Assembly: GCA_902728285.1 (NCBI GenBank)
Contig: CACVBU010000671.1
Coordinates: forward strand, 1,177,421 to 1,241,420
Length of the DNA: 64,000 bases
From: Clytia hemisphaerica
Taxonomy: Eukaryota > Cnidaria > Hydrozoa > Leptothecata > Clytiidae
Direction: 5' to 3'
The notes beneath the pieces were generated by a model. The model was not told the origin of the DNA. It saw only the letters and a list, made by a program, of their open reading frames with translations, and did not search any database. The number at the start of each line of letters is the position of its first letter. Position 1 is the first letter of the stretch. Positions 8,001-64,000 of this stretch are shown here, in pieces. The position numbers and the translations under genes are program-made.

Positions 8001-8281
8001 GGCTTTATCGTTTTGTTCGCTCATTGGAGTTTGAGGATCTACTTAATCTGGTACGTTTTATTACAGGTACACATTCATTGCTGCCAGGTGATAAAATAAA
8101 AGTAACATTTGTCAACAGACCCTTGAACCACTTATTACCTGAATCAAGAATGTGTTTCAAGATATTATTCCTGCCACGTGGATTTTTAAACTTCACTGAC
8201 TTTCGAAGAGACATGTTAAAAGCAATCAGAAATGAGGAACTCTACACCGTTTCTGACAACTTTAATGACCTTGTGTCTTAA
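5079..8281 (+). pseudogene. SAM-HECT E3 ubiquitin ligase-like gene, three exons, interrupted by a stop and a frameshift
   Basis: Exon 1 is 5079-5108 (ATG, donor GTACAA), exon 2 is 5552-5614 and exon 3 starts at 5839. Both introns are phase 0. The spliced start encodes a SAM domain (Y-L-E-Q-L-G-L through L-R-E-L-G-M-E-A-V-G-D-R). A basic linker, an acidic serine-rich segment (6410-6500) and a charged coiled coil (6690-6830, repeated E-R-x-R-I-E) follow. The C-terminal half is a HECT domain (about 7270-8281); its C-lobe keeps a cysteine in R-M-C-F-K-I-L-F-L-P (codon 8153-8155) at the position of the thioester cysteine. HECT enzymes pass ubiquitin from an E2 to a substrate. Two lesions are seen: an in-frame TGA at 6685-6687 with the frame open on both sides, and a +1 shift near 7050-7065. 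The gene is therefore a recent pseudogene, or the assembly has two errors. It resembles the G2E3-like SAM-HECT families of marine invertebrates. Confidence 0.8.
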
Positions 8282-15226: not shown

Positions 15227-16029
15227 ACACCTACGGTGGCTCCTTACTGCCACTTTGACAACGCGTTTACTTTTTGAAAAGTGTCGTCGGCATTGAAATT
15301 TTCATTTTTGCAAAACATTTTTTCTAGAAATTGTTTTGTGTTTTTCTGAATATAAAAAAAAATGGTGATTTACACAAAAACACACACACGAAGTTAAAAT
15401 TAAATATTTAGAGATAACACTTGACTTACTTGCATTACTTGGAGGTAGCACCTTCGTATCTCTAAGTACTTACAGATAGCACTTCGTATGTCTAAGTACT
15501 TAGAGATAGCACTTCGTATCTCTAAGTACTTACACATACTACTTCGTATCTCTAAGTACTTAGAGATAGCACTTCGTATCTCTAAGTATTTACACATAGC
15601 ACTTCGTATCTCTAAGTACTTAGAGATAGCACTTCGTATCTCTAAGTACTTAGATATAGCAAATCCTATCTCTAAGTACTTAGAGATAGCACTTCGTATC
15701 TCTAAGTACTTAGAGATAGCACTTCGTATCTCTAAGTGCTTACAGATAGCATTTCGTATCTCTAAGTCTTTACAGATAGCACTTCGGATCTCTAAGTACT
15801 TACAGATAGCACTTCGGATGTCTAAGTACTTACAGATAGCACCTTCGTATCTCTAAGTACTTACAGATAGCACCTTCGTATCTCTAAGTACTTAGAGATA
15901 GCACTTCGTATCTCTAAGTACTTAGAGATAGCATTTCGTATTTCTAAGTACTTACAGATAGCAGTTCGTATCTCTAAGTACTTAGAGATAGCACTTCGTA
16001 TGTCTAAGTACTTAGAGATAGCCTTTGTA
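15227..16029 (-). repeat. inverted tail module plus reverse 30-bp array
   Basis: The tail module (15227-15404) and about 20 copies of the 30-bp unit (15405-16029) lie in reverse orientation, reading AGATAGCACTTCGTATCTCT. Together with 13853-15106 they form a giant imperfect palindrome with a ~120-base loop. No head module is present at the outer end of this reversed copy; instead it abuts the head of cassette B. Open frames at 15400-15856 encode only the satellite (repeats of S-K-Y-L-E-I) and are not genes. Confidence 0.85.
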
Positions 16030-36257: not shown

Positions 36258-37526
36258 ATGGCTTCTTCTGCACCATCAACGTCTGGTACTGGGTTGCCAA
36301 TCTAGACTTCAACCTCCTCGAACATCACAACTTCTTCTCAAACGACAGGCTCACAACAAACAGTCCCGATAACAATTTCGTCGGCCTCGAACCCTTTACC
36401 ACGGGTCGTTCCAGCAACAGCGTCAACTCCTTCAGTTAACATAACAACTCTCTTAAATAGTATTGTAGATCGCAGGATCAGCAACTTGTTTGGTAACGAC
36501 AGAGGAAGGATTAGCACAACGTCAACAAGTCAAATATACCAACACCCACATCATTCTATATCTCTCACTCAACTCCCGTCACCACAGCAACCTCGCCAAC
36601 TGTCGTTTTCCCTGACGGAATTCCAGAATTTCAAAATGGTAACCCTCAAAGTGGGAGTCCTTTCCTACAATCGAATACAAACAACAGTCAAGCAAACGTC
36701 CTTCCTCCAGTTCCAGCCAGAGTTATCACACAAATCCGCAATAGTGAGTTCCTGAATTTTGAAAATTTACTCCTAACATTGGCAGGCCTGCAGCCTCAAC
36801 AGTTTCCTTTAATTTTGACGGAGAGAGATTTTCTCTCACCAACAGTGAGGCCCACTGTTTAGACACTCCTAAAACGAAGAAACAGAAAGTAGTAGACTTT
36901 GCATCATGGACCATGGCATGGTCTAAATTGTTCAAAACATTGATCCCGTTAAGTCTTACCTGGCCCAAGAACTTATCGTCTACCAAACTTACATAACCCA
37001 GTTGGCACGACAGTATAATTTTCGAGCCTGGTATGCTTACGACCAGGCCTTTAGGATGTTTTTAGCTAACAACCCCCAGACTAACTGGGGTGTTACCAAT
37101 GACTATTTATTCAATTCACACGTTAGAGATCATGCTTCTCCAACAAGGTGTTACATCTGTCAGAGTCTGGATCAGTCAGCTCCCAGGTGCCCCTCCACCT
37201 TTTCTGCCCCGGGTTCCTCATTTTCAGGTTTCACAGTCTACCACCGTTCCCGCACCCCCTTTTCAGCGACACAGAGCACCCCCAGTGTTCCCCACCCCTC
37301 TGCATCCCTTGCTGCTACATCTTCTTCAGCGCCCACTTTCAGACCCTATCCTCAGCCGCCCTTTCCATCCCCCCAGCAGACGGCCAGTGCAGGGCAATCT
37401 GGCCAGATCTGCATTGCCTTCAACTGTGGGAATTGTGTCAGAGTCCAGTGCCCAAGAATACACAAGTGCATTGTTTGTTCTTCCTTCAACCACCTAGCCA
37501 CTGAATGCCCCCACCGCCAGGGGTAG
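36258..37526 (+). pseudogene. gag-like protein of the DIRS-type element
   Basis: Starts at ATG 36258 with a Ser/Thr-rich leader interrupted by TAG at 36303. It continues (S-I-V-D-R-R-I-S-N-L) to about 36715, then shifts frame (F-E-N-L-L-L-T-L-A-G-L-Q-P-Q-Q-F) with further shifts between 36830 and 37000. The last part (37002-37526) reads F-R-A-W-Y-A-Y-D-Q-A-F-R and then carries cysteine/histidine knuckles: C-Y-I-C-Q-S-L-D-x5-C and C-x3-C-P-R-I-H-K-C-I-V-C-x-x-F-N-H-L-A-x-x-C-P. Gag proteins of this type bind the element RNA. The proline-rich middle makes long spurious frames in the other two registers. Confidence 0.75.
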
Positions 37527-37539
37527 TGGCAGTGTCCAC

Positions 37540-39027
37540 ATGAGAGAGTTACCTTCTTTGAGTTTTCCCTTGCCTTCCCCCCCACACACCACTGTTGATC
37601 CCCACATTTTGAATTTTTTCCTTGATGGTTACCGTCAGGACATTGTTGAGTTTCTTATTCATGGGTTCACTTATGGCTTTGAGTTAGGTTTTGATGGTCC
37701 AGCTCCTGTTTGCACAAGACGTAACAACCTATCAGCTATCCATCACAGCGACGCAGTCTCTGCATCCATCCTGAAAGAGCTTCAGCGAGGTCACACAGTA
37801 GGTCCCTTCCCCAATCCCCCACTCCCTGACCTTCATTGTTCGCCACTTGGCTCCGCACCCAAGAAGGATGGTTCCCGAAGAATTATTCTAGATCTGTCTT
37901 CGCCACGCGATCACTCTGTCAACGATGGCATCCCGGAGGATCTGTGTCATGTCAAGTATTCATCATTCGACGATGCAGTAAGTATGGTGGTTTCTCTTGG
38001 AGTGGGTTGCTACATGGGCAAGATTGACATTCGGCACGCCTTCAGGCTGTGCCCAGTTCGACCAGAAGATTGGCACTTGTTGGGCTATTGTTGGCAAGAT
38101 CGTTTTTTCGTTGACGTTTGTCTCCCCTTTGGCAGTCGGTCATCTCCTTGTATCTTCAACAGCTTCGCAGACGCTCTTCAATGGATTCTTGTCTCTAAGT
38201 TTAACCTATCCGGTTTGGTGCACTATTTGGACGATTTCTTTCTCAACTTTGAAACGACTTTGAAACGACTCGATACTACATGGATTTGGTACAGGCTGTT
38301 TTTGACATCATCGGAGTACCAGTGGCAGTGGGCAAGCTTGAAGGAACCAGTCAGGTTATCACATTCTTGGGCATTGAAATTGATTTTAGCTCCTTTACCA
38401 TTCGCCTTCCTCTTGATAAGCTCTTTCTTTTGCTTGAAAGGTCATCCACCCCGGTAGAATGTTCCTGCGTCGACTCATCGATCTTTCCACCTCTGTGTCC
38501 AAGCTTTTACATCACATTGACATTTCTACTAGTGTTCGTCTAGATTTGGCCATGTGGGCTGAGTTTTTGTCGTCTTGGAATGGTGTCTCTTTTCTCCCTG
38601 AACCAGCAGTCACTTCAGATTCCATTGCGCTTTTTACTGATGCATCTTTTCTTGGTCTAGGTGGCTTCTTTCAGGGACAGTGGTTGTCCCACCCATGGCC
38701 ATACGACACGTCTGAGCTTTTTGCTGTTTTTGCCACCATTTCCGCCTTCGCAATCCCTCTGACCAACAAGCACATCACAATGTTCACAGATAATGAGGCT
38801 ATCGTTGCAATATGGCATTGGTTAGAGAACTGTTTTTTCTTACTGCTCGTCACAACATCTCTGTTCGCTTTCTTCATGTCCCTGGTCGTCGTAACACCTT
38901 TGCTGACTTCTTGTCTCGTCTTCAGGTCGAAGCTTTCAAGTCGATATGTCCCGATTGTTCACCGAATCCCATCATCATCTCACCTTGTGTCATGGCCGTC
39001 TTGGACAAGATCTTGCTTCCTTCTTGA
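37540..39027 (+). pseudogene. reverse transcriptase-RNase H of the DIRS-type element
   Basis: The first frame (37540-38260) carries S-P-L-G-S-A-P-K-K-D-G-S-R-R-I-I-L-D-L-S, the catalytic M-G-K-I-D-I-R-H-A-F, F-G-S-R-S-S-P-C-I-F and the H-Y-L-D-D-F-F active site. A frame change near 38240-38280 coincides with a short tandem duplication (ACTTTGAAACG twice) and leads to I-G-V-P-V-A and F-L-G-I-E-I-D. Another change near 38445 leads to the RNase H part: A-L-F-T-D-A-S, S-E-L-F-A-V and M-F-T-D-N-E-A. A third change near 38815 gives V-R-F-L-H-V-P-G-R-R-N-T-F-A-D-F-L-S-R. All catalytic acids can still be read. Confidence 0.85.
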
Positions 39028-39976
39028 GAGACTCGCTAGCATCTTCCACCCAAAACACTTACATGTCAGGCGTACGATCTTATGTCAACTTTTGCCAACC
39101 TTCAAGACTGAACCACTTTCCTGCCAGCCAATCTTCACTTTGCTTCTTTGCTGTTTTCTCTGCAAACAGAAGTATCTCTCACAAAACCATCAAGGTCTAC
39201 ATACACGGCGTCCTCCATCAAAATTCTATGCTTGGCTATCAGTTGAATCTTCCCGAAATGACCATTCTACAACGTTTGATCAGAGGCATGAAACGACGAC
39301 AAGGCAATACACTTACCAGAGCCAGTAGGAAACCTATCACCATCAATTATCTCCAACAGATATCAATTCTTTTGCACACCTCTTGTGGCACGACAGCTGA
39401 TAAATACATGCTCTTGAAACCTCGTGGAGTCGCGTTCTTTGGGTTACTGAGAGTCTCTGAATACACATGTCCCAGTTGTTCCAAATTCAACAGCAGCATA
39501 CACCTGTCACGTTCTGACGTTCAGTTTAATCCCACCCTCTCCATTATGACAATACGTATCAAAGCAAGCAAAACTGACCCCTTCCGAATGGGAACAACCA
39601 TACGTATTGGAGCCACCTTTGATGCCCTTTGCCCGGTTGGTGCCATGCGAAACTACCTTGCCCTCTCCCCGAGCTATTCTGGACCCCTTTTCAGTTCTCC
39701 AACGGTAATTTTTTAACCAGAAATGCAATTCGCAAGCTTTTGATTACAGCCCTCCCTAGCATTAGGGACATCAATACACACAATTTCCGCATAGGTGGAG
39801 CTTCAGTCGCCTTAGCACCAGGTGCCTCAGACTCAATGATCCGTATTTTGGGCAGATGGACAAGTGATTGTTATTTAAGATATTTGAGAATAGCTGACAA
39901 TGACATTACTCAATTTCAGCAGAAAATGGCTACGATTGTCTACACTACCACAGTTTGGGATCCTGACACTTGGTAG
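38946..39976 (+). pseudogene. tyrosine recombinase of the DIRS-type element
   Basis: The frame from 38946 to about 39700 shows S-T-Q-N-T-Y-M-S-G-V-R-S-Y (the N-terminal SAM-like core-binding region) and L-L-R-V-S-E-Y with the first catalytic arginine. It also shows a beta-sheet segment around I-K-A-S-K-T-D-P-F. One frameshift near 39700-39715 leads to 39710-39976, which has H-N-F-R-I-G-G-A-S (the H-x-x-R pair) and W-T-S-D-C-Y-L-R-Y with the candidate nucleophilic tyrosine. All four signature residues are therefore preserved despite the shift. It begins inside the RNase H coding end in a different register, as in known DIRS-like elements. Confidence 0.85.
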
Positions 39977-41651: not shown

Positions 41652-41835
41652 TTACTGGGCGAAATCACGTCTTTCAAATCGGTGGAAAGAGGTGGGAAGT
41701 TCATATTCCCACATCTTTCAACCGATTGGAAAGTTGATCTTTCAACTTGATTCGAAAGTTCGGCAGGTTACCTTCCCAACTTTCGAATCAGATCATCTTC
41801 CCAACTTTCCAACTAGTTGAAAGTTCAAATTCTTC

Positions 41836-42005
41836 AACTTTCGAATAGAGTCGAAAGATGAAATTCTCAAACTTTCGAATAGAGTTGAAAGATGAGATTC
41901 TCAAACTTTCGAATAGAGTTGAAAGATGCGATTCTCAAACTTTCGAATAGAGTTGAAAGATGAAATTCTCAAACTTTCCAACTGTTGAAAGTTCACTTTT
42001 CCATA
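41836..42005. repeat. 34-bp tandem repeat with palindromic core
   Basis: Five starts spaced exactly 34 bases apart (41836, 41870, 41904, 41938, 41972) share AACTTTCGAATAGAGTTGAA then AGATG and ATTCTCA. Each unit has CTTTC facing GAAAG across AATAGAGTT. The preceding 41690-41830 holds related but irregular TTTCAACTTGATTCGAAAGT words, so the array grew out of a degenerate fold-back region. Confidence 0.85.
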
Positions 42006-42250
42006 TCTTTAAACCGGTTAAAAATTCGATTTTTCAATTTTTAAAAGATGAGCCAAATTTGCAAGTATGTACAGCTATCAAACTTAACCCCTACATTTCA
42101 GAAATCACCGTGAATTAATTGTAACCAAGCATGAAAATCATGAAATATTGACACATATGTATTATGGTAGCACAGTTATCTTTTTTAATAACAAAAGATG
42201 AATATCTATGAAAAATAAAACTGGGTTGATTTACAAAAGGAGTACTTTAA
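42006..42250. other. short AT-rich spacer
   Basis: Nothing recognisable apart from AT-rich sequence. Confidence 0.35.
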
Positions 42251-43165: not shown

Positions 43166-43826
43166 CTATTTACACCAGGGGGGTGGGGGGTGTAATCTAC
43201 CACCCTGGTAAGTTTTATCCTATATCTTTGCGAAAAATTATGGAAACAGCACGAACTTTTGTGACAATTAAAGAAATTAGCTTCTCTAGAACCGGTTTTA
43301 TAGGTTTATTGTGAAAATCGGTATAAAACCGAACTAAAATCCATTAAAATCTTAAATTATTAAAATGGTCATAACTTCTGAAGTATTTATCCAATCGACT
43401 TCAAATTTTAACAGGTTCAATATATAGATGAGACAAATATAAAAAAATAATAATTTTTTCTAAAATAGTTGACGTCATCATTTATGACGTCATCAATTTT
43501 TCAAAATTTTACTCATTTTCAGCATAAATTTTACACTTGAATATTGAGGATATATCAAAAACCGGCAAATATGTTAAACAGTATTCTTTTAGCTTTCAGA
43601 ATATGAAAACAGAATTGAAAAATCTTTTGTAGCTCACTCAGGAATGGCATTTTTGTGAAGTACCCATTTTGCCTAAGTTACGAACAGGTGCCAACTTTTT
43701 TTTTCTTTTGGGAAGTTTCAATCATGATAAGGAACATCTGTGCAAAATTTCATCAATATATCTCTTCTAGATTAAAAGTTATCGAGGGTGGTAGATTACA
43801 CCCTCCCTGGTTATACACCAGCCAAA
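43166..43826. mobile_element. ~660-bp MITE with GTGTAATCTACCACCCT ends
   Basis: ACACCAGGGGGGTGGGGGGT then GTAATCTACCACCCT (43172-43206) is mirrored by AGGGTGGTAGATTACACCCT then CCCTGG and ACACCAG (43785-43821). The outer flanks TTAACCCT and AGGGTTAA are also inverted, so the element may extend to about 43158-43855. The interior is AT-rich with ATGACGTCATC repeated near 43470-43490. There is no gene. Confidence 0.7.
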
Positions 43827-43941: not shown

Positions 43942-46900
43942 TCATATTTGCTTTATAGCCCAGCTATTTTTGGTGGTACTTTGTGGCGCTGACCTTGAAC
44001 TATATGGTCCCATTTTTCTAACCACAGTTTGCCGGCGAGCTTTTGCTGACATCAAAGAAAATGCCTTCTTGTCCAACATGTCGAACTTTTCATCACATTC
44101 CACACTCCGCCAGCGAAGTGGCCTTATTTCGAAATGATCTTCCTCGCAGTCTGACTTTTCTTCTTCTGAAGACATAAATTCTATATTGAGGACATCATTG
44201 AGTTTTGAAACATCGTCAGGGTCAATTGTTTTTACCTTTGCTAAAGTCGACTTCCGTTTCTTGAGTTTCTAAAAAGTAAATAAAAAATTTCAATCTAAAG
44301 TTTTTTTCAGATATGTGTGTACTACTTATATTGGAGACCTAATTCTCCTAATCTCTTCAATGACTCCTCATCTTCGAAAATGAAGAAGCAAAATGAAGAT
44401 GAAAAAAGGAAAAACTTTTCTATTGGTTCAACAAACTCGAAATTTTGTATGAGTAAACTGAATTTATTTTTGCATTTCAAAAAGTATGAATCCATATTCG
44501 TGGCTTTTCGAATCGAATCGTTTTCGGATCGAAAGATACAAGCCTTCGAATGTGTCCAAAATGTCGGAAAGTGTGCCTACTTTGAGCAGCTATATCTTCC
44601 GATCTAAAAAGTTTCACATAGACACTTAATACTTTTTCGAATCAGGAAAGATTGAATTTTCATTTGACGCTAAAGAAAAATTTACAGATGCTTAGAAAAA
44701 ATATTTTTACATCTTCATTTTCGAAGGTATAAAAAGCTGACTTTAAAAGCAGATCTACAAGGAGGTAGAATTGAAACAGGACAAATCATTGAATATAAGT
44801 ACATTTTCAATTTCAACGTGTGAAAATATTGTATTATATTATATATAACTAAATAAATAACTAAATCTTGACAACGTGATAGACAAAAATTCATAAATCT
44901 TTACCGTTATTTTGCGTTGGTTGTAAGCCTTTTTTTGAAGATAAGATGCAGTTTTCTTTGGGGTGTAGTACTTCACAGATTTAAAATATGTCTCAACTCC
45001 CGCTGAATGAAATAAATAAAAAAAATAAAAATTCCAGATTGTGTTTTATTAAACAGTGTCAGCCACAACTTTTAAAGGTCCAACCTTTAATGGCTTTGAC
45101 AGCTGTTGCTGTTGCAGTTTGGGAACTGGGAAAATAATAAAAAAAGAAAATAAATGAGAATTCCTTTGGTTCACTGACAAAGTTAAAACCTCTATATCCA
45201 AAGTGTAAAGGATGGAATTAATTTTTAGCTTTTGAGCTGGAAACACCAACTAGATAAGACTGCAAAATTGTCAAGTAAAAGGAATGCATTGTGTGGAACC
45301 CTCTTAAAAAGATTTCTCTAATAAAAATTTAACTTAACTACTGACAAAGTTACCTTTGAATTCGTCTTTGCTTATGGTTTTATCTAACCCTATGACGTTC
45401 TCTTTAAGTTTTTCTGTGATTTCGTTATTAACTTGGGAGTACACTCTGAAAACCAAAATGATAAATGAAATAAGTATATACCCAAATGAAAGACCGAACA
45501 GTTTAAAAAAATGAAAACAATTTTTTTGTCCAAAATCCACAGAAAATTTCTTTAGAGGTCTATTCAATACATTATTGCATACACCCTTTATCTTAAAGAA
45601 AATATTACTTATATCTTTTTTATGAAGGTGATCAATTTTCTGAAAAATCATACCCGTAATCAAAGTTCCATTTATGATTTTGTCTTTCGCATAGCCTGCT
45701 GTAGCATACCTTGATGTAATTCTATAAGAAAAGACAAAGTTCAAAATGATACATTACTAGAGACTTTGAAGGTTATAGAAAGCTCACGGAGAGGCAGGGA
45801 AAAGATAAAAGACAAGTTTTCAATTCATAATTAATAGAAAATAAGCAGATCCCCTTAAGTTTCCGTGTGAGGAAAACCTTACAGATTACATGAGTAGAAA
45901 GTCTTCATTCTGAAAACAAAGCTTTCACCCAAAATTTCATAGGGGAACTAAATTTGACAGGAAGAAATTTTTGAGGGAAACAAAATTTTGCTGGGGAAAC
46001 TAATTTGGCAGATTGCAAAGAGAATTAATTTGTTGTTGCTGGCATTTTTGAATTGTAAAAAATTTAAAATTCTTAAAATGGTCTTATTTTGATAAAAGCA
46101 CAAATTTCGCCCTGCTTTGCACCAATATCAGCTTCCCAAAGTCAGAATAACCCCTTTCTTACACTTGTTGTTGATCTTATGTCTATTGTGGGTGGTCTTC
46201 TTTTGTTTTGAGAAGCTTCTAGTTTATCAATCCTTTCTTCTAAAGCTTTTTGCTTCCTTAGAAGTTTACGAATTAAGACAGAATGATCTAAAAAAGAAAA
46301 CATTTTTGGTATAAACTTTAAATAAAATAATAAAACAAGTGGAAATAGAATAAAATAATTTTGAAATTAACTTTTGCCTTTCCATCTGCATATGCTACTG
46401 TGGGGCTACTGTAGGGTTACTGTAGCAGTAAGGGGGTTACTAAGGATTTTCAAATAAAAACTGCAACTTTTTTATTTACCATTAATAATTGGTGATATTG
46501 TCATGTCAAGGTCTTTCTTTTTTCCTGAAACGGGGGTACCTAAAAATAAAGACATTTTCTTTCAAAATACTAAACTTGGTTCATTATTCTCTTAAATTTT
46601 AACAATTATTATTCTTTATTAAAAAGATGACACACCTTTTTGTCTTTGTTGTCGAAACAAGGAAAAGAGAAGAAAAAAAGAAATATAAAGAAAGACAAAA
46701 AAATAAATTATCAATCAATTAGTGTGCTAGAGAAAAACATGCTTTTTCAGAATCGGAAAGCTGACTTAACAATTTTATTGACTTGACAAAAATTGAGGGA
46801 ATAGGTGAATGAAATGATCTTACTGTTTAATCTAATGTTATTTTGGTTTTCCTTGAGAGGTGATCTTGTGAGTGCTGCAAAAAAGAAAAGCCTCGTAAAC

Positions 46901-49351
46901 AAACTTAAAAAAAACATCATCAAATCAATATCACCAACATGTGTGTTTCTTTTGAATTTCAAAGATGCAATAGACAAAAAAACTGATAACTCAGATACTC
47001 TGAAACTAATGCTTGGCATAAATTTTATTCTGTAAGTAAGGATATTAATAAAACCCATCTTGGGCTGCTGACTGTATAGTTATTACATTGTCACAAACAT
47101 AAACTACTCAGCAATTGAAAAGACAAAGGAAAAGTGAATTCTTACTTTGATTGCCATAAGGTTTTTTTGATCTTGGTGGTGTTGCTTCACTTTCGGCTTC
47201 TGAGAGACTTTCTGTTTCATCTCCATCAAATTGTTGTTTTTCTGTTGAAAAAAGGTTGATCAGATTTCAAGCTTTTAATATCTCAGAAATCAAACTTCCA
47301 CAAATTGCTTCAACAATTAGAGTGAGATTTAACATATAATACATTGGTAAAAATGTCTCACCTCTTCCTTCATCCTGTGTATCCCATGGACAACGGATTG
47401 AGTCTAGAATTAGTGAAAAGATTTGTGGGATATATGCAATCATTATATATTGCGACAACTAGAATGATGTAAAGTATTTATAATAAGGCAATAGTCAAAT
47501 AAATATAAAACTTCAAACTATTTAAAACTCTTCTGGAAACTTGTGTAATTGTATTTCATAACAAAAAGTCAGAAATATTTTTCGCCCTGAAACGTTATTT
47601 AAGTTTTTTAACCTTTAAAACACAACCCATACCGAATGAAAGATAAGAGTCTATATGTGTTTCTATTAATAAGATTAAACTGTTTGATGAAATTGCACTA
47701 AATTATTAGTCACAAAATCATTAGTCAGACAAAAGTGACTAAATTCTTTGGTTAAAATTTTGTCCGATAAGGTAGATGGACAAAACAGGACAAATAAAAG
47801 AACGTTAACAACACACCATAACTAGATTGAATACTCAGTTTACAGCTTTAATAAAAGAGATGAGAACAACTTTTTATCAAAACATCAAATTTTAACCATT
47901 ACTGATAGTAAAAATAAAAGTTATTGAAAGCTCCCATAGCTAGACAGACCAAAAATCATCATTGCATCTTTTTATTATCATTTATTAATTTTAGACTATT
48001 ACAGTTAGAGTATTAAAATTGATAATAAAAAGATAAGTAAAAATAAAGTTAGGCAATATTAAATAATTACCTTCTTTTCTTTGAGTTTTCTTTGGCATAA
48101 AGCTGGAGGGTTTTTCCTTGCTTTGTTTACCTGATATGAAAATGTGAATGGTAAAAAACTAAACAGAACATTTTTTTATGAACAAGAATGCCTGCGAAAG
48201 AGGCGAGATTCAAAAATATAGATAATATAGAAATATAGAATTATTTACTAGAACACATCTTGAACTTATTTCTGGAAAAGGGAAAGAAGTGATTCACAAA
48301 ATGTCATTTGTTCTAAAAAAAGTAAAGACAACTAACTTCAGTAAATATTTTCTAAAAAAATTATAGTGACTGGAAATGACATTTTGCACTGAAACTGTCT
48401 CATTAATCTAAAAAGTTATCAGAGTTACAGTTAGTTATTGTTTGAAGGGTTTGGATCCCAAAGAATCACCGGGAATGTAAAATGATAAAATGAAGAAAAA
48501 ACTATTCAAATTTGTCGACTACATGGGCTACATACCAACTACTACTACCTACTACTACTTCTATTTTGTAAAACTTTTATTATATTTATTGTCAACTGTA
48601 CTACTTGTGTGTCTTTTTATTTACAAGAATTATTCTATCATTCCAATAAAAAGATTATTGTATTCTGCATTGGCGCAAATGTATGTTCAACATTAAACCA
48701 AAAATTAGGACACAAAGCCAAGGGATCTGGATATAAATTTTAATAATATATTATACTAACCTTTAGGTTGCGACTGTGGCTTTTCTCTGTTTCTTTGACA
48801 AATTGATGACAAAATTGATCGTTTTCTTGACTTTGGACCTAATATCAAAATTATATATTATAATAAATTATATTATTTTCAAACAGTCAGGAATAACTTA
48901 TATTTGTAGAATATAGAATAGTATTGAATTTGCTTTTAAAAGCTTTAAAAGAAGTTGAAAACACTGGCTGGTCAGACGTCAAAAGTAATTATCGCAAAAG
49001 TGCAAAAAAACAACATCTACTGATCTAGTGAAATCTTAACTTCCCCTTTAAAACCTAGTCTAATGAAAAAAACAATACCTTTTATATCTAATTTTTTATG
49101 ACAATTTATAGCCGAAAATATACAGCACACTAAAATGATACCCATAAAACAAGTCTCTGAACACTACATAACGTCAAACTCTGTAACCAGAGGTGAAAAT
49201 CTTTAGGATACTTTGGAGAAGTTATACTTATAGCTATACAAATAAATTGTAAAAAAATAATTGTATTAAAATCAATTAATTTTAAGGATTTAAACTTACT
49301 TGGACTAGAAGGAATATAATCACCACAATTCATATCAGAATATAATTCCAT
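43942..49351 (-). CDS. multi-exon coiled-coil protein of unknown function, candidate transposon accessory protein
   Basis: Antisense exons, mostly joined by phase-1 introns: 49300-49351 (ATG), 48761-48838, 48071-48130, 47362-47403, 47146-47241, 46824-46874, 46480-46539, 46165-46287, then unresolved small exons between 45070 and 45750, then 44905-45002 and 43942-44268 (stop TGA). The N-terminal half is Ser/Lys-rich and acidic-basic mixed. Exon 46165-46287 encodes a heptad-like coiled coil (L-I-R-K-L-L-R-K-Q-K-A-L-E-E-R-I-D-K-L-E). The last exon is basic (K-L-K-K-R-K), then acidic (M-S-S-E-E-E-K-S-D-C-E-E-D). It ends R-P-L-R-W-R-S, L-D-K-K, R-R-Q-T-V-V-R-K, S-S-R and S-W-A-I. The matching phases over eight exons make a real gene very likely. 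DNA binding or oligomerisation is only inference. Confidence 0.7.
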
Positions 49352-49702
49352 CTGTTGTATTGTTACTTATTTTCTGCAATGTATACTACAACAAAATGTT
49401 TAAAAATATTTCAAAAACCGTTTCACGACTTTTACACCTTTCCTTTCCCTTGCCTTGCCTTGTCATTTACGTTTTTTTTTTTTTGGCGCTCAAAGATTTT
49501 CGACAATTTTTTGTTTAACGCGCCTCAAACCCAGTCTCTTTCGTGATATTTCTCTATAAGTCATCGTCCAAATCTACATTTTCTCGGTCACGTATTTTCA
49601 GAACGCTATTGGTCACGTTTGTAAACAAATGGTAGACAGTTTGCAGAAAATTTAATTTGAAACACAAGACAAGCTCGATTTCAGAGAGTACTGTAAACAA
49701 TC
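49352..49702. promoter_or_regulatory. bidirectional promoter between two divergent genes
   Basis: Only 351 bases separate the two start codons (antisense ATG ends at 49351, sense ATG at 49703). The spacer is richer in C and G than its surroundings, with GGCGCTCAAA and AACGCGCCTC words and a T-run near 49471-49483. No TATA box is obvious. Both genes must be driven from here, so shared regulation is likely. Confidence 0.6.
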
Positions 49703-52700
49703 ATGTCATTCAATGATGAGCAAAGTTTTGTGGATGAATCGTTTGAAAAAAGTTCCAACAGCAGCAGTCTTAGTAGTGGCAGTGTAAGCGACGATAATGA
49801 TGAAGATGGTGAATGGGATTCTAATTTAGTTGAAACATTGAAGTAAGATATTTTTCTTCATATTGTCACTCCTGCCTATTTCCTGAAACTTCATTGAATC
49901 ATTATTTTCAATCTCAGGTATTTAGTTACTGTACATACAGGTGTTATTTTTTAGGGTGATGAAGAAGTAAGGGAAGTGCACCTAATCTTTATATTTTATG
50001 GCCTAGCTAGGGGAGTCACTAGCCACTAGGTCTCAATCATCAATTTTACAAGAAGAAGAGAAGTAAATCATAATATATCATAATTTTATAACGTGGGGCC
50101 ACACAGATAGAACATCAATTAGCTGGCAAACACAATACCATCAACATTCCAGCTGCGGCTTTCTTATAACTATGGGTACAGTTTGGCATTATACTGCATT
50201 ATTATTCGGGATATAGACATTTTTGCTTGGGACTAACGTAATTTGATTAAAATATGTAGGGTCAGGCTTACCATCAGTTATGTCAACTTCATAAAAAATA
50301 GCTCTCAATTTCATTTCCACATGTCTTCACTCAATGATGGAGCACTTTTTCAACTGACATCAGATTTCTCAAGAAACCTTCTTTTAATCGATTTGCCGGA
50401 AAAGACTTTGAAAGCCCGAAACAGAGTGAATAGGGCTAGTCTGCACTCAACCCTAAAGACTAATTATTTAAAAGTTAATTATCTCATTAATGATCTGGTT
50501 GGGAATTTTTAGACCCAATTTAAAAAGTTGTAAAAGTAATAAAATATCCACCCTCAAAAAATAAAAATTCCCAACCAGATCATTAATGAAATAATTAACT
50601 TTTAAATAATTAGTCTTTAGGGTGGAGTGCAGACTAGACCTTATATATTTTACAGACCAGAAGAGTATAAAAGAAGGTTCCTTGAGAATCTGATGTCAGT
50701 TGAAGTACTCCATCATTGAGTGAAGACACGTGGACATGAAATTGAAAGCTATTTTTTATGAAGTTAACATAACTGTCCATGAGTGGTGACAGTAAAAGCC
50801 TATTTTTCACTCAAAAAGAGTTGATTCTTGGACAATAAGACAGTATAATACAGAAAAGCAGGGTAAAATTACAGTAAGCTATTTTTGAGAAAGGATTTTC
50901 TATTAAATTTTCTCATTTTAGCCCCAACTTTAGTGGGGTCTCCATATAAATAAGTTCAAAAGTTTTGTGAAGTTCCAAACAAAGGATATTTCAACATTAT
51001 TTTCAAGAATTTTTAATACTTGTTAAATGTTTTGCAATCATGAAAAAAAAAATTTCCAACCCCAGCAGCCCATTTTCTATCCAAAAAACACCTCCTTGCT
51101 AGCTAATTATTGTAGATGTATGTTTTTTCACGTATTTTCCCAAAAAATGTAATTGTGTTTTTTTTTATTATTTTTCAGTATGAAGAAATGTCCTGTGTGC
51201 AAAAACATCTTTTCAAACAAGTCATTTCGGAAACATTTTGAATCCTGTGCACTTTCTGAAGAATCCTCTGGATCAGAAGCAAATGTTCAAACAACTTTGA
51301 ATAAAGAAACAAATGTTGATAATGTTCCTCCAATGGTTGATGTAACTGACACCCCATACACATTTCAAAGTGAAGCTGCTGACATCAGGACTGATGAATG
51401 TGGCTTTGATTTCCCTGTCGAGGAAGACCTTGAAGACTTGGATGAAGAAATCTTAGAGATGATATCTCAACATTACTTTGAGAATACTAGTTCAGGAGAA
51501 GAAGCTGACGAAGCAATGGAAGAAAATAACGATGAAAATTTGGAACATGATCATGAACCAATTAACAGAACCATAAGTATTTCCTCATGGATTTGCCTAT
51601 TTTTGGCTTTGTGGCAATTTCACTACAATATAACAGACAGTGCTTTTGAATGCTTACTGAAGTTCGTTCATGGATTACTAGCAATATTAGTCCAGCACTT
51701 TGGTCTTGATTCTGCTATTTTGATTGGACTTCCAAGCAGTCTTTATCTTTTTCACAAATGTGTGAATACAACTGAACGATTCAAGAAATATGTTGTCTGT
51801 ATAAAATGCCACACTTTGTACGAGTTTGAAAAATCAGTCACACGAATACAGGGACAACAAGTATCAAAAAGATGCTCTCACATAGAATTCCCAAACCACA
51901 ATCTTCCGCACCTAAGAAAGCAATGTGGACAAGAACTGATGGAGACAGTGAGAATTGGAAATAGCACATCACTTGTACCCTACAAAACCTATTGCTACAA
52001 ACCTTTGTTGACAACTTTGAAATACTTGTTCAAACGAAAAAACTTTTTTCAACTTTGCACATCCTGGCTGACTCGGAAAGTGCACCCAGAAATTCTATCT
52101 GATGTTTATGATGGCCAGCTTTGGAAGGATTTTTCTGATCCCAATAAAATGGATTTTTTAAATCATGCTGGTAACATTGGAATTATGCTAAATTGTGATT
52201 GGTTTTGCCCATACAAAAAAGTTAGGACTTACAGTATTGGAGCAATATATTCAGTTGTCATGAATCTCCCAAGGAGTATAAGGTAAATTAAATTTACACT
52301 CAATTTCAAAGCAGGATGGCAATGACCCTATATATTATGAGATTTAAAGCTGAGATTAACAATTCATAAATCTGCGTTTTTCTTTGATAACTTCAGTGTT
52401 TCCTCTAGGGTTATGCACAAGAACTTGATATCTGCTATATATTTGCTATATCTGCTATATCATTATTATTTTGTCTGAATAATAATTGATCTTGAATATT
52501 ATCATCAAATAGAGTGTAATTGACTTTATTAAAATATGTTTTGATAAGAATGGTGATGGATCCGTATTATTTTATATTGATTGACACTATATTGCTTTAT
52601 GTCGCCCTTTACTATGTACTTTAAATTTCAGATTCAAGAAAGAGAACATTATCTTGCATGGATTGATTCCAAATATGGCGAAGGAACCACCCACCAACAC

Positions 52701-55560
52701 ATTCATAAGCCCATTAGTAGATGAACTATTGATAGCTTGGAATGAAGGCTTCCAAATAGAGTTACATGATGGTTCTAAAAGAAATATTAAAGCTGCAGTT
52801 TTATGCGTTGGTTGCGATATTCCAGCTTCAAGGAAACTGTGTGGATTCAAAGGTATACCATTTTTTTAAGAAAAGTGTTTTTTTAGTTAAAAGTGAAGTA
52901 TTTTCTATGACTGGCATATACATCTTTAAAAATATATTCTTTACTTTTAGAGTAAAGGATTCTATTAAACTTATACGACAATGATCTATTTTGAGAGTAC
53001 CGTGTCCAAATTTATCGGTTTTAACAACAAAATCGAAGAATAAATTTTTTCACTAGCCTTCCTTGACGGGCTGTAACTTAGGAAATATACAAATAGTCAT
53101 TGTGACTGAACACGCAGTCTATGTCTTACCAATCTCGCATTATCAAGAACAAATATATCAGCAAAGAGGCAGAAAGACATGTAGAGTAAAAAATTAGAGA
53201 GAAAATGTAGCAAAGAGAAGAGTTGAAAATAGATGATTGAAGTATCATTTTGGGGCGTTGCTTAGCTTTGTGCTATCCTTTGCCCATTTACTAGTTTTTA
53301 ATTAATTACTTATAAGTTTAAGTACCAGCTTTTACTTATAATATTAAATATTATTATTTATATGGAAAAAGAAAGTGAAATAAGAAGTATTAGGCCAAGA
53401 AGGGCCTTTAGAAAGAAGTGAAAAAGAGATATCTAGATTACAGATTTCTATCCAAGGTGTTTGACTATTTTATCACCAAAATTATAATGGAAACTAATAA
53501 AAAAGCTGCTTTTAGAACCGGAGATTAGATCTCGTCTTTTGGAACAATAAAAATGTTAAAATAAAAGTTTATCTAAAAGTAGAAAGAAATATTTAAAAGA
53601 TAGAGTTAAAAAAATGCAACTACACCATGTTGTTCGGCAAACCTTCCTCAAACTCCGCACCGGGTTTTCATCAAGCCTTTCCCTAACTTTAAAAGTATTT
53701 TGAAAAAAGAGAAGAGTTGAAGATAGAGGTAAAGATCTAAGAAAAAAGATATAGTGAGAAACGTTCGAGATGGAGACAAAGCCTAAAGTTCAGATCCTCG
53801 AGAGTACCGATAGAAAATTCACCATCTGAATATCAGGTTACTCTCCCCAGTTTTAGCATATAATTTAGAAATGTTATCAAATTTCAGACCCTTACAACGC
53901 ACCTGGGTTTTGTCAGCACCTCGGAAAACCTACCCTTAAGGACCGTATGTCCGGTAAGCCTCTTACTTTGAGCTCCCCAATTCGACATTTAATTTAAAAA
54001 AAATTCTTTTTCAGCCCACAATGCAAACAAAGGCTGCAACAAATGTAACAAGTCCTTTCCAGGAAGTATAGCAGAAGGAAAAAATTATGGTGGATTTGAC
54101 ATTAATGAATGGATTCCACGCACGGATGCTGAGCATCGTAAGCAAATGCAGGAGATCGAGAATGCTGGCACGAAAACCGAACGTGAGAAGCTGGAGACAA
54201 AATACGGTACCAAGTATTCCATCCTTACAAAACTTCCATATTATGACTTCATTTCGATGACAATTATTGACCCAATGCATAACATTTTCCTCGGGACCGC
54301 CAAACGGATGATACAGGTTTGGAAGGATGCCGGCTTCATTACTAAACACAACATCCACCACATACAGGAACAAATCGACAAAATCCAATGTTCAGACGAT
54401 GTTGGAAAAATTCCCGGCAAGTTTGACGACTTCTCATTCTCTTCTTTTACCGCCGATGAACTGAAAAATTGGACCTTGTTGTTTTCTTTGTTTGCTCTAA
54501 AATATATTATACCTGAGGACCATTTAAAGTGTTGGAAATACTTCGTAATTTCGTGTGTTTACCTGTGCAACCAAGCAATAACGGTGGCCGATTTGACTGT
54601 AATTGGTGATTATCTTGTAAAATTTTGCAAATCGTTTGAAGAGCTGTATGGAAGTGATGCAGTCACCCCTAACATTCATTTGCACTGCCACCTTATTGAA
54701 TGCATCAAAGCGTATGGACCGGTTTACGGGTTCTGGCTTTTCAGTTTTGAAAGGTTCAATGGGATGCTGGAACGAATGCCAAGAAACAATAAAAACATCG
54801 AGATCCAACTAATGAGAAGATTTGAACGGGATCTTCAAGCCCAGAACATTCCATTTCCTGAACAGCTAAACGACGATTTCCTTCCACTGTTTAACAGCTT
54901 GCTAGATAGTCAACAAAGAGGTTCACTCGATGTTCGCGACATTGACGTTGACGTATTACTGATGTCATCAAAAAAGATGAATTATAGCGGCTTCGATTGG
55001 TCCGAGTTGTCTCACATCTCAATGAAAAGAAAACAGATTATCTACGATTTGACGATAAGAGAATCCGAATGTCTGGAGTCAATGTACCAGCATCTCTATC
55101 CCAGTATGGATATAGTTGTCCCAATCGCTTGTTGGAAAACAACAGAAGTTGTTTGCAACGACGTTCTCTACGGATCTGAAGTATCCAGAAGCATTCGTTC
55201 AAGCAACATAGTTGCCTTTTGGTGTGGTCAAGATGGTCAGATACAGCCTTTTGAAAGTATGTATAATTCGCAAGACCTGGAAAAATTTTGTATTTTATCA
55301 AACATTCTGTCATATTAAACGGTGTTTACAAAGAACACATTCTCGCTCGAGTCGATTGGTTTTCACATTCTAATTATGACAGTAATGCTATATATGGGAA
55401 ACCAATAATGTTGTTTCGAGACAAGCTATTTGAAGTAACTGGGAGTGCATCGTTTATTCCAGTTCAACGTATTTTCAGCAAATTCGTTTACGCTCAAATT
55501 CAAATTGATTACAATGACATTCTGGTTGTTATACCAAGAACTCGACACTTGAATATTTAG
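49703..55560 (+). CDS. CACTA/Tnp2-type transposase, four exons, one late frameshift
   Basis: Exons: 49703-49842, 51179-52282, 52632-52852 and 54015 onward, each with GT-AG borders and matching phases (2, 2, 1). The N-terminus is Ser/acidic, followed by a C2HC finger (C-P-V-C-K-N-I-F-x6-H-F-E-S-C) and an acidic stretch. Next come a second Cys-rich block (C-I-K-C-H-T-L-Y to R-C-S-H-I-E-F-P-N-H to C-G) and the transposase core: Y-D-G-Q-L-W-K-D-F, L-N-C-D-W-F-C-P-Y (candidate catalytic D), N-L-P-R-S-I-R, P-L-V-D-E-L-L, A-A-V-L-C-V-G-C-D-I-P-A-S-R-K-L-C-G-F. The core continues with I-D-P-M-H-N-I-F-L-G (second D) and T-P-N-I-H-L-H-C-H-L, F-E-R-F-N-G-M-L. After about 55263 the frame shifts by one base to A-R-P-G-K-I-L-Y-F-I-K-H-S-V and runs to TAG 55560. 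Apart from this shift the gene is clean. Confidence 0.82.
50270..50790. mobile_element. ~520-bp fold-back element in transposase intron 1
   Basis: The left arm (about 50270-50515) and right arm (about 50564-50785) are reverse complements over some 220 bases, with gaps. Landmarks on the left are ATCATTGAGTGAAGAC in complement, AACTGACATCAGATTTCTCA and AGTTAATTATCTCATTAATG then ATCTGGTTGGGAATTTTTA. Each has its mirror on the right. The loop is ~50 bases. The frame at 50243-50512 lies on the left arm and is not a gene. The transcript of the intron would form a long hairpin. Confidence 0.85.
52853..54014 (+). other. third intron of the Tnp2-type gene
   Basis: A 1.16-kb intron with GTATAC donor and TTTTTCAG acceptor. 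It is AT-rich, with no gene or clear repeat; GAAAAAGAAAGTGAAATAAG and related purine-rich words are frequent between 53160 and 53760. Confidence 0.6.
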
Positions 55561-57189
55561 ATTCTTCTTTATGTCAATGAATGATTAAATATTTTGTAAT
55601 ATTTCTTGATTTTTAACCGTTTAAAGTGCCAATGTCCTTAGTGTATTTTGTAATCATTGGCTTTCACTTTCAATTTTGTTTAAAATGTAGGAATAGAGAT
55701 TTGCTTGATTTGATCTCTGATTTGAGTGTCTTCGAAATGGAAAATCTTTCCGAAACACTAAAACAATGGAACTCTGATTTATTTATTTGTTTTGTTTATT
55801 TAGGACTTTAAAGTAGGTATTTGTGGAAAAAATATCCTTGTTTTATTACTGTAAATCATCGTAAGTTTCGAATTTGGGGGAGAATATTGGTTTGTATACC
55901 TACCTAAGCAGCAAGACTTGAGATCATTTCTGATAGATTTTTGCCATATACAAAGTGAGTGCTTATGCTTCTTTTGGCATCCCTATTTTACTCTTTCATC
56001 TAATTTTTTATTATTTTTTTGAATGTAAAGTAAAGTGACGCCTAAAGTATAATTTATTTAAGTTAAAATGGTTTTGCTGAGTTTTACGAGATACTGTCAT
56101 GTATCTGCGGCCGTTTCTTCGAAAATATGGTCTGACACTTTAAGTAAAGCCCTCAAATCTGTAAAGCTAAATTTCACATCTAGATTTCACAAATAATGCC
56201 TGGAATTTTCATGTCATAGAATTTATATACAGCAATAGTTGATTTATACGAGTAGTTAAAAGTTAAAAGTTCCTTTAATAATGGAAGAAATTCTAGCGAG
56301 AATACTTTATAGCGTTTTAGCGGCTTTTTGCCTTTCTCGCAAAAATTAAAAAGAAAATTATATTAAATCCCGATTCAGTCAGTACGTAACAAACTTCAGT
56401 CTAAAACTGTTACCTACATTTTCTTCCTGTTTTTTGTTCGTTTCGCTAAATTTTCTGAAATGGCAATTCGCTGAAATAAGTCCCGAAAGTATCGAGATTT
56501 TTCTGACTCGCGATTTTACGCTAAAATTTCTCTGATTAAAGTACTTCTTCCACTACATATCTTCATTTATCTTGGTTACTATTAGTATTGTACCATTTTG
56601 ATACATTGTTTTTGTTATTATTGTTTTTATTCATCATTAATTCTTAATTTCGCAAAAGTCAACATCCCAAAGTTATTATTCTAAAACTACCAAAACAGCT
56701 TTTTCAGATTTTCAAATCAACGAAGTTTGAAGCTTCATTGGATAATCATTTTGTATGACATTTGCCAATTTTTCGAAGTTTGTAAAACAAATAAAATTGT
56801 CAAGAAAATCTTGTATTATCTGCATACTTTTGAAATTTGCTTAGCGCTTCTTGTGTTGTGATATTTTACTCTAGGGGATTGTACATTCCAGATTGTAATT
56901 TCTTTTTATTTTGGTGAAGGGTTAGAGATGTTTCCTTTGAATGAAAAATGGCGTGTAATCCAAAATATATCAATTTACTTGTTACAAGTTCCTTCTACAT
57001 CCTTCTATGATTTTCCCTATGAAAATATAATTTCAAAGTTTCGTTTTACAATGAATGTATTATAGGACTATAAATACATCCATGGTTTTAAGAAAAAAAA
57101 TAAGCAACAATTTTTTTCAGATTCCACCGTTATTTTGAAGGTTATGTTGATGCAATTATCATTGGGCATTTCCAGAAAAAGTCCGCACC
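55561..57189. other. 1.6 kb downstream of the Tnp2-type gene, no gene seen
   Basis: AT-rich non-coding sequence. It should contain the right end of the CACTA-type element if one exists; no CACTA-like inverted repeat was recognised. Confidence 0.4.
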
Positions 57190-57375
57190 CCCCTGTTGAT
57201 ATAGGATATCCAGGTCTGAAATTTTCAATATCCTAGGATATCCAGGGGATAAGAATCTGGAGACCAAGGATATCCATGGGGTGGGGGTTCAAATTTTCGA
57301 TATCCTAGGATATCCAGGGGGTTAGAATTTGAGGACCAAGGATATCCAGGGGGTTAGAAATTTTCGGCATGGATA
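57190..57375. repeat. GATATCC-rich short tandem repeat
   Basis: Two ~74-base copies: AAATTTTCAATATCCTAGGA at 57216 and AAATTTTCGATATCCTAGGA at 57290, each continuing into TATCCAGGGG, TAGAAT or AAGAAT, and GACCAAGGATATCC. The words GATATC and CCTAGG are themselves palindromes. No coding potential. Confidence 0.75.
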
Positions 57376-58499
57376 ACCAGGGGTCTGGTGTTAAGAAAAA
57401 TCGACATTCTCAACAGTGGGAATATGGATTTTTTTCTGGAAAAGCCCATTCAATTTTGGTTTAGGCATCCAATTTTCGGCAAAGTAATAACAAAATTAAA
57501 TATTCGACTAAAAGGGAAGTAATTTTGGCCATTGGGAAAATAAATATTTTATTTTAGGGAGAACTTCTTTTGGCGAATGGTAGATTTTATTAATTTTGGA
57601 CATAACATAAAATAATGGCGACAATTTTGATGAAAACAGGGTTGATTTTAATGAATAACCAGGAACAAAAGTCATGGGAATCCGACAGCTGAGCAAGGGG
57701 TCGCGCAAAGGGAAAATGAACTGTGATATGCGCCCGTTCGCTGCGCTACATTATTTACTTTTTTCAAAATGGCGTCTGTAGCGACAGTGGAATTTCCATC
57801 TGATTGCTAGCTGATTTTATTCATAATCTGGAATATTTTTTTGTTGGATGCTCCTGTAAGTAAATCTCTTGAAAACATTATTAATTAATTGAAGAATTAT
57901 CACAATTTTTAGATTCTAATTGGATTGAATTGCTTTGGATTCCATTCTATTCGATTAGTTTGATTTGTTGTGTCGCAAAGAGAGGTCGAATGTTGAATGG
58001 TGTGTATCTAAATTTTTATAGGTGCTGCTGGGAGTAATTTTTAATGATAAAGAGTGTTTTGTGGTTGAACATATCTCCAAGAACAACTGAACGTAGTGGA
58101 TTGGGGGGAGTGGAATACAATAGGTATTGAAGTATTCAAATCTTTCAAATTTCACTGTTGAATATCTTCACTCTAGCTCTTTCCATTGGCATTTGTGTTT
58201 TGATTGTTGATTCCCAAACAATACTTGTTTCTCCACAGGCCTTGTGAATGAGTTAACCTGCTCAGCATTTTCACACTGTTTCTTTTCTATTTTATTGAGT
58301 TGCACGTGCAGCAGTGGTGCAGGTAGGTTTTCCCAGTCGAGGCTGCAGGCCCATTTCTGACACTCAATGATGAGGGATCACGGCGTGAGTTGACTTAGGC
58401 GAGAGTTTGTTCACTTCACTGCAGTGAGTGGAAATCAACCTCAATCACCTGTGGTCCTCTGCAGCAGCAACCAAGGTCACACACTGATGACTATACATA
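57376..58499. other. intergenic, no supported gene
   Basis: An ATG at 57768 in AAAATGGCGTCTGTAGCGAC resembles an animal translation start, but its frame closes after 13 codons without a donor. The segment 58310-58495 is more GC-rich and may be part of a decayed repeat that continues after the 58500 element. Confidence 0.4.
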
Positions 58500-63285: not shown

Positions 63286-64000
63286 AATGTTATAGAAACT
63301 TTTTTTCATACAATTGGTTTTTCAAAAGTGTTTGGCTTCCCCGCAACGAGTCTTAAAATTTCTGCAAACCCCCAGTTTTTGCTCACTTTATTACGCGCGT
63401 AATATGAACAGGGCCTTATAGCGCTATAAACAAACGATTTCTTCATTGGTTGAGTTTTGTTGGTAGATCACGTACCAAATTCTTGATTGAAGCAAGCAGG
63501 AGTCGTGGTCACGTCGCATGATGTTTTCCCGTGTTTTGATTTAGCAAAATTTAGAAAGTTTGACCACTTATCAATGTTTTGATTTTTCTTGCGCGGATTT
63601 CTGTTTAGAGCTAAAATATGGTTTGTATGGGATCAATGGTGGTACAGCTGTGTAATTGTCAACCTCTGTCTGCTCAGTGTTGACAAGTTTTCAAATCAAA
63701 ATAGCAAGCGCGGCGCGCCAGCAGAAAGTCAACCAACTGACAGACCCATTCAGCCATTTTGTAAAGTCAAAATGACAGGAACCAAACAATTTTTAGAGAT
63801 CGCCCAAAAAATCAAACGATACCTCATAAATTCATTTTCAAAAGAGTAGTAAAAAATGAATCAATCGTAGTAGCCGGCATAGCAGTGGTTTTGTTTTCCC
63901 AGAGGAGCAGAATTAGAAATAGCACATTACATTTAATTGATTTTCACTTTTAACGACTTTGAATCAATAAAAATATGTTTTTATTCATTGCACATCGTGT
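63286..64000. other. intergenic to window end
   Basis: No supported gene. A frame at 63589-63849 has an internal ATG at 63772 (M-T-G-T-K-Q-F-L) but no motif or donor. Confidence 0.35.

Follow-up and report, generated by a model that had tools for sequence, protein, structure and literature searches.

In the window, by which we mean the whole 64,000-nucleotide stretch of Clytia hemisphaerica DNA analyzed here, a transposase gene and a spliced gene of unfamiliar type point away from each other across a short interval. The locus thus raises the question of whether the two genes belong to one transposable element and, if so, what role the second gene (hereafter, the partner gene) would play in it. 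A preliminary description of the sequence had proposed that the pair, if a unit, would be an animal counterpart of the plant two-protein CACTA system with divergent genes and one shared promoter, and we followed up this reading by comparing the window with related loci of the same genome, which are denoted below by their contigs (C466 being the window contig).

The Tnp2 transposase gene

The Tnp2-type transposase that the preliminary description had placed at 49703-55560 was recognized: five predicted exons on the forward strand (Table 1) yielded an intact gene with a single open frame of 977 aa and a computed pI of 5.5. In a Pfam scan, the protein matched Transposase_21 (PF02992) above the curated cut-off (E 4.6e-18), and DUF1258 and DUF4218 also matched, both under their cut-offs. 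The NCDWF, GCD[IM]PAS, and FWLFSFER blocks were identical in the window and in all six copies compared, and the CxxC block was found in the window, C628, C775, C225, and C792, being unaligned in C748 and C416. These conserved blocks are compatible with a DDE transposase of CACTA type, the assignment of the catalytic residues being putative.

The genome also holds a second Tnp2-like lineage (C394, C517:2621669, C164, C103, C739, C41, C303, C852:31694, C860, and C796), whose members have long uninterrupted frames of 751-827 aa with 24-29% identity to Tnp2 exon 4, and which is possibly a separate CACTA-type family.

Table 1. Features of the two-gene element in the window (positions are those of the window)
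Feature	Position	Strand	Remarks
Left end	41653..41664	+	Terminal repeat TACTGGGCGAAA; first base differs from the CACTGGGCGAAA of relatives; flank as at the C628 end
Subterminal repeats	41665..42100	+	CTTTCGAA / GTTGAAAGA motifs in both orientations
Partner exon 12	43942..44268	-	Basic stretch followed by acidic MSSEEE and the RPLRWRS tail; ends with stop codon
Partner exon 11	44905..45002	-	Splice model and relatives
Partner exon 10	45354..45445	-	Splice model and relatives
Partner exon 9	45654..45721	-	Similar exon in five relatives; only this end phase allowed in the search
Partner exon 8	46163..46287	-	Splice model and relatives; coiled-coil-like by heptads
Partner exon 7	46480..46539	-	Splice model; similar exon in C225
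Partner exon 6	46824..46874	-	Splice model; weak match in C225
Partner exon 5	47146..47241	-	Splice model and relatives
Partner exon 4	47362..47403	-	Splice model and relatives
Partner exon 3	48071..48130	-	Splice model only
Partner exon 2	48761..48838	-	Splice model; weak match in C225
Partner exon 1	49300..49351	-	Start codon; similar exon 1 in C775
Between start codons	49352..49702	.	351 bases; candidate bidirectional promoter
Tnp2 exon 1	49703..49842	+	Acidic N terminus; similar exon in C775 and C225
Tnp2 exon 2	51179..52282	+	Holds the NCDWF block
Tnp2 exon 3	52632..52852	+	GCDIPAS block
Tnp2 exon 4	54015..55256	+	CxxC, DPMHN, HCHL, and FSFER blocks
Tnp2 exon 5	55334..55560	+	Ends with stop codon
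Right remainder of element	55561..57660	+	C628 similarity stops at 57660

The partner gene and its conservation

The antisense partner gene (49351-43942, reverse strand) was predicted to consist of 12 exons with GT-AG splice sites, giving an intact frame of 382 aa. The preliminary description had counted at least eight exons with consistently phase-1 joins; this is nearly right as to phase, phase 1 being found at eight of the 11 joins, two others being phase 0 and one phase 2. Three features that it had noted in the last exon (a basic part, an acidic part, and the RPLRWRS motif) were located in exon 12. A first model of 373 aa was dropped because of a frame error in exon 9, the relatives having given a phase 0/2 exon, and an ADP-ribosyltransferase match of that model (E 0.0073, below cut-off) was gone with the corrected one. 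The protein was basic overall (pI 9.6 for the earlier 373-aa model), and a heptad pattern was seen in exon 8 of the same model, exon 8 and the tail being common to both models. In the Pfam scan no family matched the 382-aa model, no PDB relative was found for an alignment of the partner tail or for the earlier 373-aa model, and no known DNA-binding domain was detected in these Pfam and PDB comparisons.

The partner gene recurred in related copies with its exon order preserved: C225 carried exons 4, 5, 7, 8, 10, 11, and 12 in the same order, C775 and C792 carried subsets of these exons with the order kept, and C416 and C748 carried exons 8, 10, 11, and 12 in order. Several of the short exons matched their relatives only at E 0.1-4 each, so that the evidence lies in the exon order. 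For exon 9, a search restricted to its end phase gave a counterpart in C775, C225, C792, C416, and C748; its phase in these relatives is thus partly built into the search, whereas the donors of exon 8 and the acceptors of exon 10 were read directly. Furthermore, the last exon differed between lineages by a pS of 0.66-0.91 and a pN of 0.17-0.39, with a dN/dS of 0.12-0.20 where dS was correctable; the close pairs, having few changes, gave 0.26 (C75/C594) and 0.67 (C775/C695). In this substitution test, C628, C797, and C904 were left out and pairs were compared only within five groups. Because the exon order recurs in the copies and the pN of the last exon lies far below its pS, the partner gene is more than a chance assembly of frames, and these substitution patterns indicate a protein under long-term purifying selection.

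Head-to-head pairing and parallel divergence

As the preliminary description had noted, the two start codons lie on opposite strands with 351 bases between them, a candidate for the shared promoter proposed there; in C775, the start codons of the two genes, as inferred, are about 1.2 kb apart. In the organism's own 417-Mb genome, Tnp2 exon 2 gave at least 85 matches, all of which merged to at least 66 loci, and four partner queries from increasingly distant lineages gave 84 partner loci, first-query rows weaker than E 0.0041 being excluded unless refound by a later query; these match counts are lower bounds. The same genome gave 39 exon-level matches to the wnt family, a marker of animals, whereas none of 14 control genomes gave a signal. 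The partner is accordingly a multicopy family and not a single-copy host gene, the case that the preliminary description had named as speaking against a unit.

We also applied the check proposed there, whether a partner lies head-to-head with other Tnp2 copies. Among 30 Tnp2-partner pairs within 20 kb, 28 were arranged head-to-head with the partner upstream and antisense. Of the two exceptions, that in C224 has the partner downstream with both genes on one strand, and that in C712 involves a second Tnp2 locus. As the later partner queries were picked stepwise as likely to find more, 28 is the number found and not a rate; in the first lists, which included all first-query rows, 21 of 23 close pairs were head-to-head, where random placement expects about 0.09. 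Seven loci were paired by the later, more distant queries (C69, C727, C548, and C926; C794, C560, and C517). Against this, a head-to-head partner within 20 kb was lacking for 38 of the 66 Tnp2 loci. Of the 84 partner loci, no more than 28 were paired, leaving at least 56 without such a Tnp2. Some of the Tnp2 matches span only part of exon 2, and two (C181 and C566) sit within about 12 kb of the contig start on the upstream side; the partner may also be truly absent in some Tnp2 lineages.

The path distances of Tnp2 exon 2 and of partner exon 12 were correlated across 20 pairs (Mantel r 0.77, p 0.0002, which is the minimum reachable with 5000 shuffles), near-identical copies contributing part of this signal. 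The trees comprised 20 of the 23 extracted Tnp2 copies (without C628, C760, and C224) and 20 of the 28 partner exons, C797 being cut at its stop; 19 of the pairs lay within 20 kb and that of C904 was 24 kb apart. The groups C466/C225/C775/C792, C748/C416/C558/C797, C807/C209, C712/C894, and C75/C594 were common to both trees, and C613 and C735 were placed differently in the two. These comparisons indicate that the Tnp2 and partner genes diverged in step and, together with the head-to-head arrangement in 28 of 30 close pairs, support the earlier reading that they form a real unit.

Element ends, target duplications, and subterminal arrays

A further check suggested beforehand concerned terminal inverted repeats and target duplications, and both were found in the relatives. 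The element end CACTGGGCGAAA was exposed by comparing C775 with its 98% relative C852, and five complete relatives of 13-24 kb proved to have the termini CACTGGGYGAAA...TTTCRCCCAGTG, inverted copies of CACTGGGYGAAA bounding C628 (18.4 kb), C225 (24.3 kb), C775 (23.0 kb), C748 (13.2 kb), and C416 (13.2 kb). The terminal inverted repeat was perfect over 12-16 bases in four of these elements, which were flanked by 3-bp duplications (AAA at C628, TGA at C225, TAA at C775, and GTG at C748); in C416, it was perfect over 7 bases with one mismatch in the 12, and the element had a 4-bp GTTA on both sides and no 3-bp match.

The 12-mer CACTGGGYGAAA occurred 290 + 293 = 583 times in the genome, compared with 25 + 17 = 42 times for the reversed control, and among the 100 sites listed, neighbors within 25 kb formed 23 inward, one outward, and four same-way pairs. 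When 14 of these 23 inward pairs (from the first 100 of the 583 sites) were combined with the five full elements, a 3-bp target duplication was present at 14 of the 19, where shuffling gave a mean of 1.1 and a maximum of 7. The 14 inward pairs, read at both ends, contributed ten of these duplications, and none was seen at C12, C142, C195, or C193, also with both ends read. Among the sites listed, eight inward pairs span 194-648 bp and look like non-autonomous derivatives; one short copy of this kind is C3:404017-404210.

Some more distant lineages showed related ends about 1.1-1.5 kb beyond the partner stop, namely CACTGCACGAAA in C807 and C209 and CACTGTGCGGAA in C712 and C894; CACTGCATGAAA in C75 and C735 is a less sure, tentative end with 3 mismatches, and C760 gave only a 3-mismatch candidate. 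The stretches of C672, C613, C622, C594, C679, C904, C265, and C314 yielded no convincing end (at least 4 mismatches; 3 in C904). In C712 and C894, the almost identical partner exons are followed by the same flank (acacacgg), likely reflecting a duplication and not two insertions, or else a wrong call of the end.

Inside the termini, a CTTTC[GC]A-type motif was packed into the outermost 500 bp of both ends, in both orientations, of C628, C225, and C775 (clade 1) and was rare in their interior. The window element resembled both ends of these three copies, the two motifs listed in Table 1 being dense in its first 500 bases and rare inside. C748 and C416 (clade 2) carried a different, TTTCCAAA-like subterminal repeat, and a subterminal array was also present at the partner-side end of C558 and C797. 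In C807, C209, C712, C894, C75, C224, and C695, all of which have the partner gene, the partner-side end was read for 500 bp inward and no repeated motif stood out. Taken together, the family combines features by which CACTA/EnSpm elements are recognized, namely a Transposase_21 protein, CACTG-type termini, a 3-bp duplication, and subterminal arrays.

The copy in the window

The window copy itself departs from its complete relatives at both sides. Its left terminus reads TACTGGG where the relatives have CACTGGG, and its similarity to C628 ends about 740 bases before the right terminal repeat of the latter, indicating that the right end is no longer where it belongs; a displaced end may lie further on, the window, and the contig with it, ending at 64000. 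As this end is missing, no pair of element ends was recovered by the inverted-repeat search in the window, in which the 25 longest of 111 repeats were considered. With the right end lost and the first base altered, the window copy is therefore probably immobile; having both genes intact, it could supply proteins to other elements.

The segment 35837-57660 (21.8 kb) corresponded to C628:1958883-1982400 at 99% with abrupt ends on both sides, and the two loci share 5.8 kb past the left end as part of a 14.4-kb alignment at 99% identity. C628 was ruled out as a second, separate insertion since the shared segment includes the flank, and because of these 5.8 kb the two are best understood as one insertion seen twice, by segmental duplication or as two alleles or haplotypes.

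Other repetitive sequences were encountered in and around the element. Intron 1 of Tnp2 contains nested, MITE-like inverted repeats with 80- and 73-base arms (50275-50775), beside which C628 has a further insertion of about 1.6 kb with a 13-base overlap (50211-50223) that is possibly a target duplication, and another MITE-like insert (43185-43806), with 22-base arms 578 bases apart, lies between the partner 3' end and the left end. The left flank common to the window and C628 carries a reverse-transcriptase ORF (37002-39976; RVT_1, E 2.3e-6, just below cut-off), and the ORFs after it resemble what we take to be a tyrosine recombinase (the one scanned had no Pfam match), so that a DIRS-like retroelement is possible there. 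Elsewhere in the window are an ORF with an integrase core domain (2506-3687; PF24764, E 1.2e-35), an ORF holding the terminal portion of a HECT ubiquitin-ligase domain (6977-8281; E 7.3e-6), and an ORF of tandem SKYLEIALRI-like repeats (15488-15856).

Proposed mechanism and alternatives

On the sequence evidence above, we consider it probable, with some reservation, that the window element is an animal two-gene DNA transposon of the CACTA/EnSpm type, in which Tnp2 would cut and join the DNA and the partner would serve as an end-binding helper. Since many related copies keep the pair together, the partner probably helps the element to move, and we infer that it is most likely a DNA-binding cofactor analogous to TNPA. 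This role is suggested because the protein is basic, contains heptads, is borne by the element, is conserved, and diverged in step with Tnp2, and because the end arrays differ between two clades; the lack of a known DNA-binding fold, arrays not being seen in every clade, and the many unpaired loci count against it. In the proposed mechanism, Tnp2 would be the cut-and-paste enzyme acting at the terminal repeats, the basic, coiled-coil-like partner would bind the element ends and bring or tether Tnp2 there, and the short elements of this genome that share these ends would be served in trans by the two proteins.

The main rival explanation gives the partner, still encoded by the element, a regulatory or anti-silencing role instead of one in transposition: it would bind the element and so keep it expressed, in a way comparable to VANC of the Arabidopsis VANDAL elements. 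A separate, conserved, basic, element-encoded protein without a known domain would fit such a function equally well. The motif arrays, however, lie at the ends of the five complete elements, where a cofactor would act, and while regulation is also compatible with this location, we regard the regulator as the rather unlikely choice. Still less probable, in our estimation, is that an ancestral element picked up the partner on a single occasion and has since carried it as a passenger that contributes nothing to its life cycle; the 38 of 66 Tnp2 loci lacking a head-to-head partner within 20 kb speak for this, but purifying selection at saturated synonymous divergence would be unexpected for a passenger, as would the similar exon structure in five relatives and the co-divergence of the two genes. 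Finally, it is scarcely credible that the two are domesticated host genes, and no transposon, multiplied as a pair through segmental duplication, since the terminal repeats and target duplications contradict it and the nearly identical partner exons of C416 and C558 have different flanks, even though the flank shared by the window and C628 reflects duplication or alleles and not two insertions, and a common flank is likewise found at C558 and at the second locus of C792.

A wider proposal can also be made, which we advance tentatively and with less than even confidence: this animal CACTA lineage would move with an independently transcribed protein family that is unrelated to the described cofactors and that recognizes, and diverges with, the subterminal motifs, and the 'RPLxWRS'-tailed proteins that presumably occur as repetitive families in invertebrate genomes would be its relatives and not host genes.

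Relation to known systems

The comparisons below draw on passages of the cited papers. Like En/Spm and the plant CACTA elements, the present family combines a Transposase_21 protein (Tnp2/TNPD), CACT ends, a 3-bp duplication, and subterminal arrays with a second, non-catalytic protein (PMC2613891, PMC4158355). In Spm, transposition requires TNPA, which binds at the subterminal repeats (PMC2613891), and maize TNPA and TNPD arise from alternatively spliced transcripts of one region (PMC2613891, PMC2836001); the partner, in contrast, is predicted to be a 12-exon gene of its own on the opposite strand. Besides the transposase, full-length plant CACTA elements have been described as carrying an 'ORF2' whose function is unknown, two ORFs in all (PMC4158355), and hence a second ORF is not new in itself. 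The partner is compared here with TNPA and ORF2 by their descriptions, those of ORF2 giving no orientation in the passages concerned (PMC4158355).

Among animal elements, SmTRC1 and the TRC group likewise employ a Transposase_21 transposase for cut-and-paste transposition, but TRC has CCC termini and a 2-bp duplication, as opposed to the CACTGGG termini and 3-bp duplication found here (PMC1636069). SmTRC1 is 4.5 kb long with one transposase ORF, and its alternatively spliced transcripts may give rise to further proteins; these passages on SmTRC1/TRC make no mention of a divergent partner gene (PMC1636069). The PIF/Harbinger elements are similar in having two independent genes, one of which encodes a DNA-binding protein that recruits the transposase to the element ends (PMC2836001), their ORF1 binding the ends and being needed for nuclear localization of the transposase (PMC2836001). 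They differ in the transposase superfamily and the ends, and in the Pfam scan the present pair gave Transposase_21 and no family, with no Myb-like ORF1. The fungal EnSpm and related lineages share 5'-CAC..GTG-3' termini, 3-bp duplications, and extra genes with this family, but their extra gene encodes a TET/JBP dioxygenase and not the partner (PMC12730594).

In database comparisons, neither Tnp2 exon 4 nor its core had a relative among viral contigs or genome contigs, the partner tail had none among viral contigs, exon 4 had none among phages, and the core had none among plasmids; as these collections contain few animal sequences, this says little on the distribution of the family. Within the available passages of the open-license PMC literature, the scope of our survey as distinct from Repbase, no divergent second gene is described for animal CACTA elements. 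The new point here, unless Repbase already lists it, would thus be that a CACTA element of an animal has a second gene that is divergent, spliced on its own, and of an unknown family.

The CACTA helper TNPA was worked out in maize. The present gene pair, together with the short elements as reporters, is available for tests in animal or yeast cells, and the proposed function would assign a role to a multicopy protein family that otherwise resembles unknown host genes. Within this one genome, the diverged lineages offer a natural test of joint change in a DNA-binding protein and its repeat array. If it is true that a divergent helper has been kept over deep divergence in an animal, this would suggest that CACTA elements generally need a DNA-binding helper, which would then be no plant oddity.
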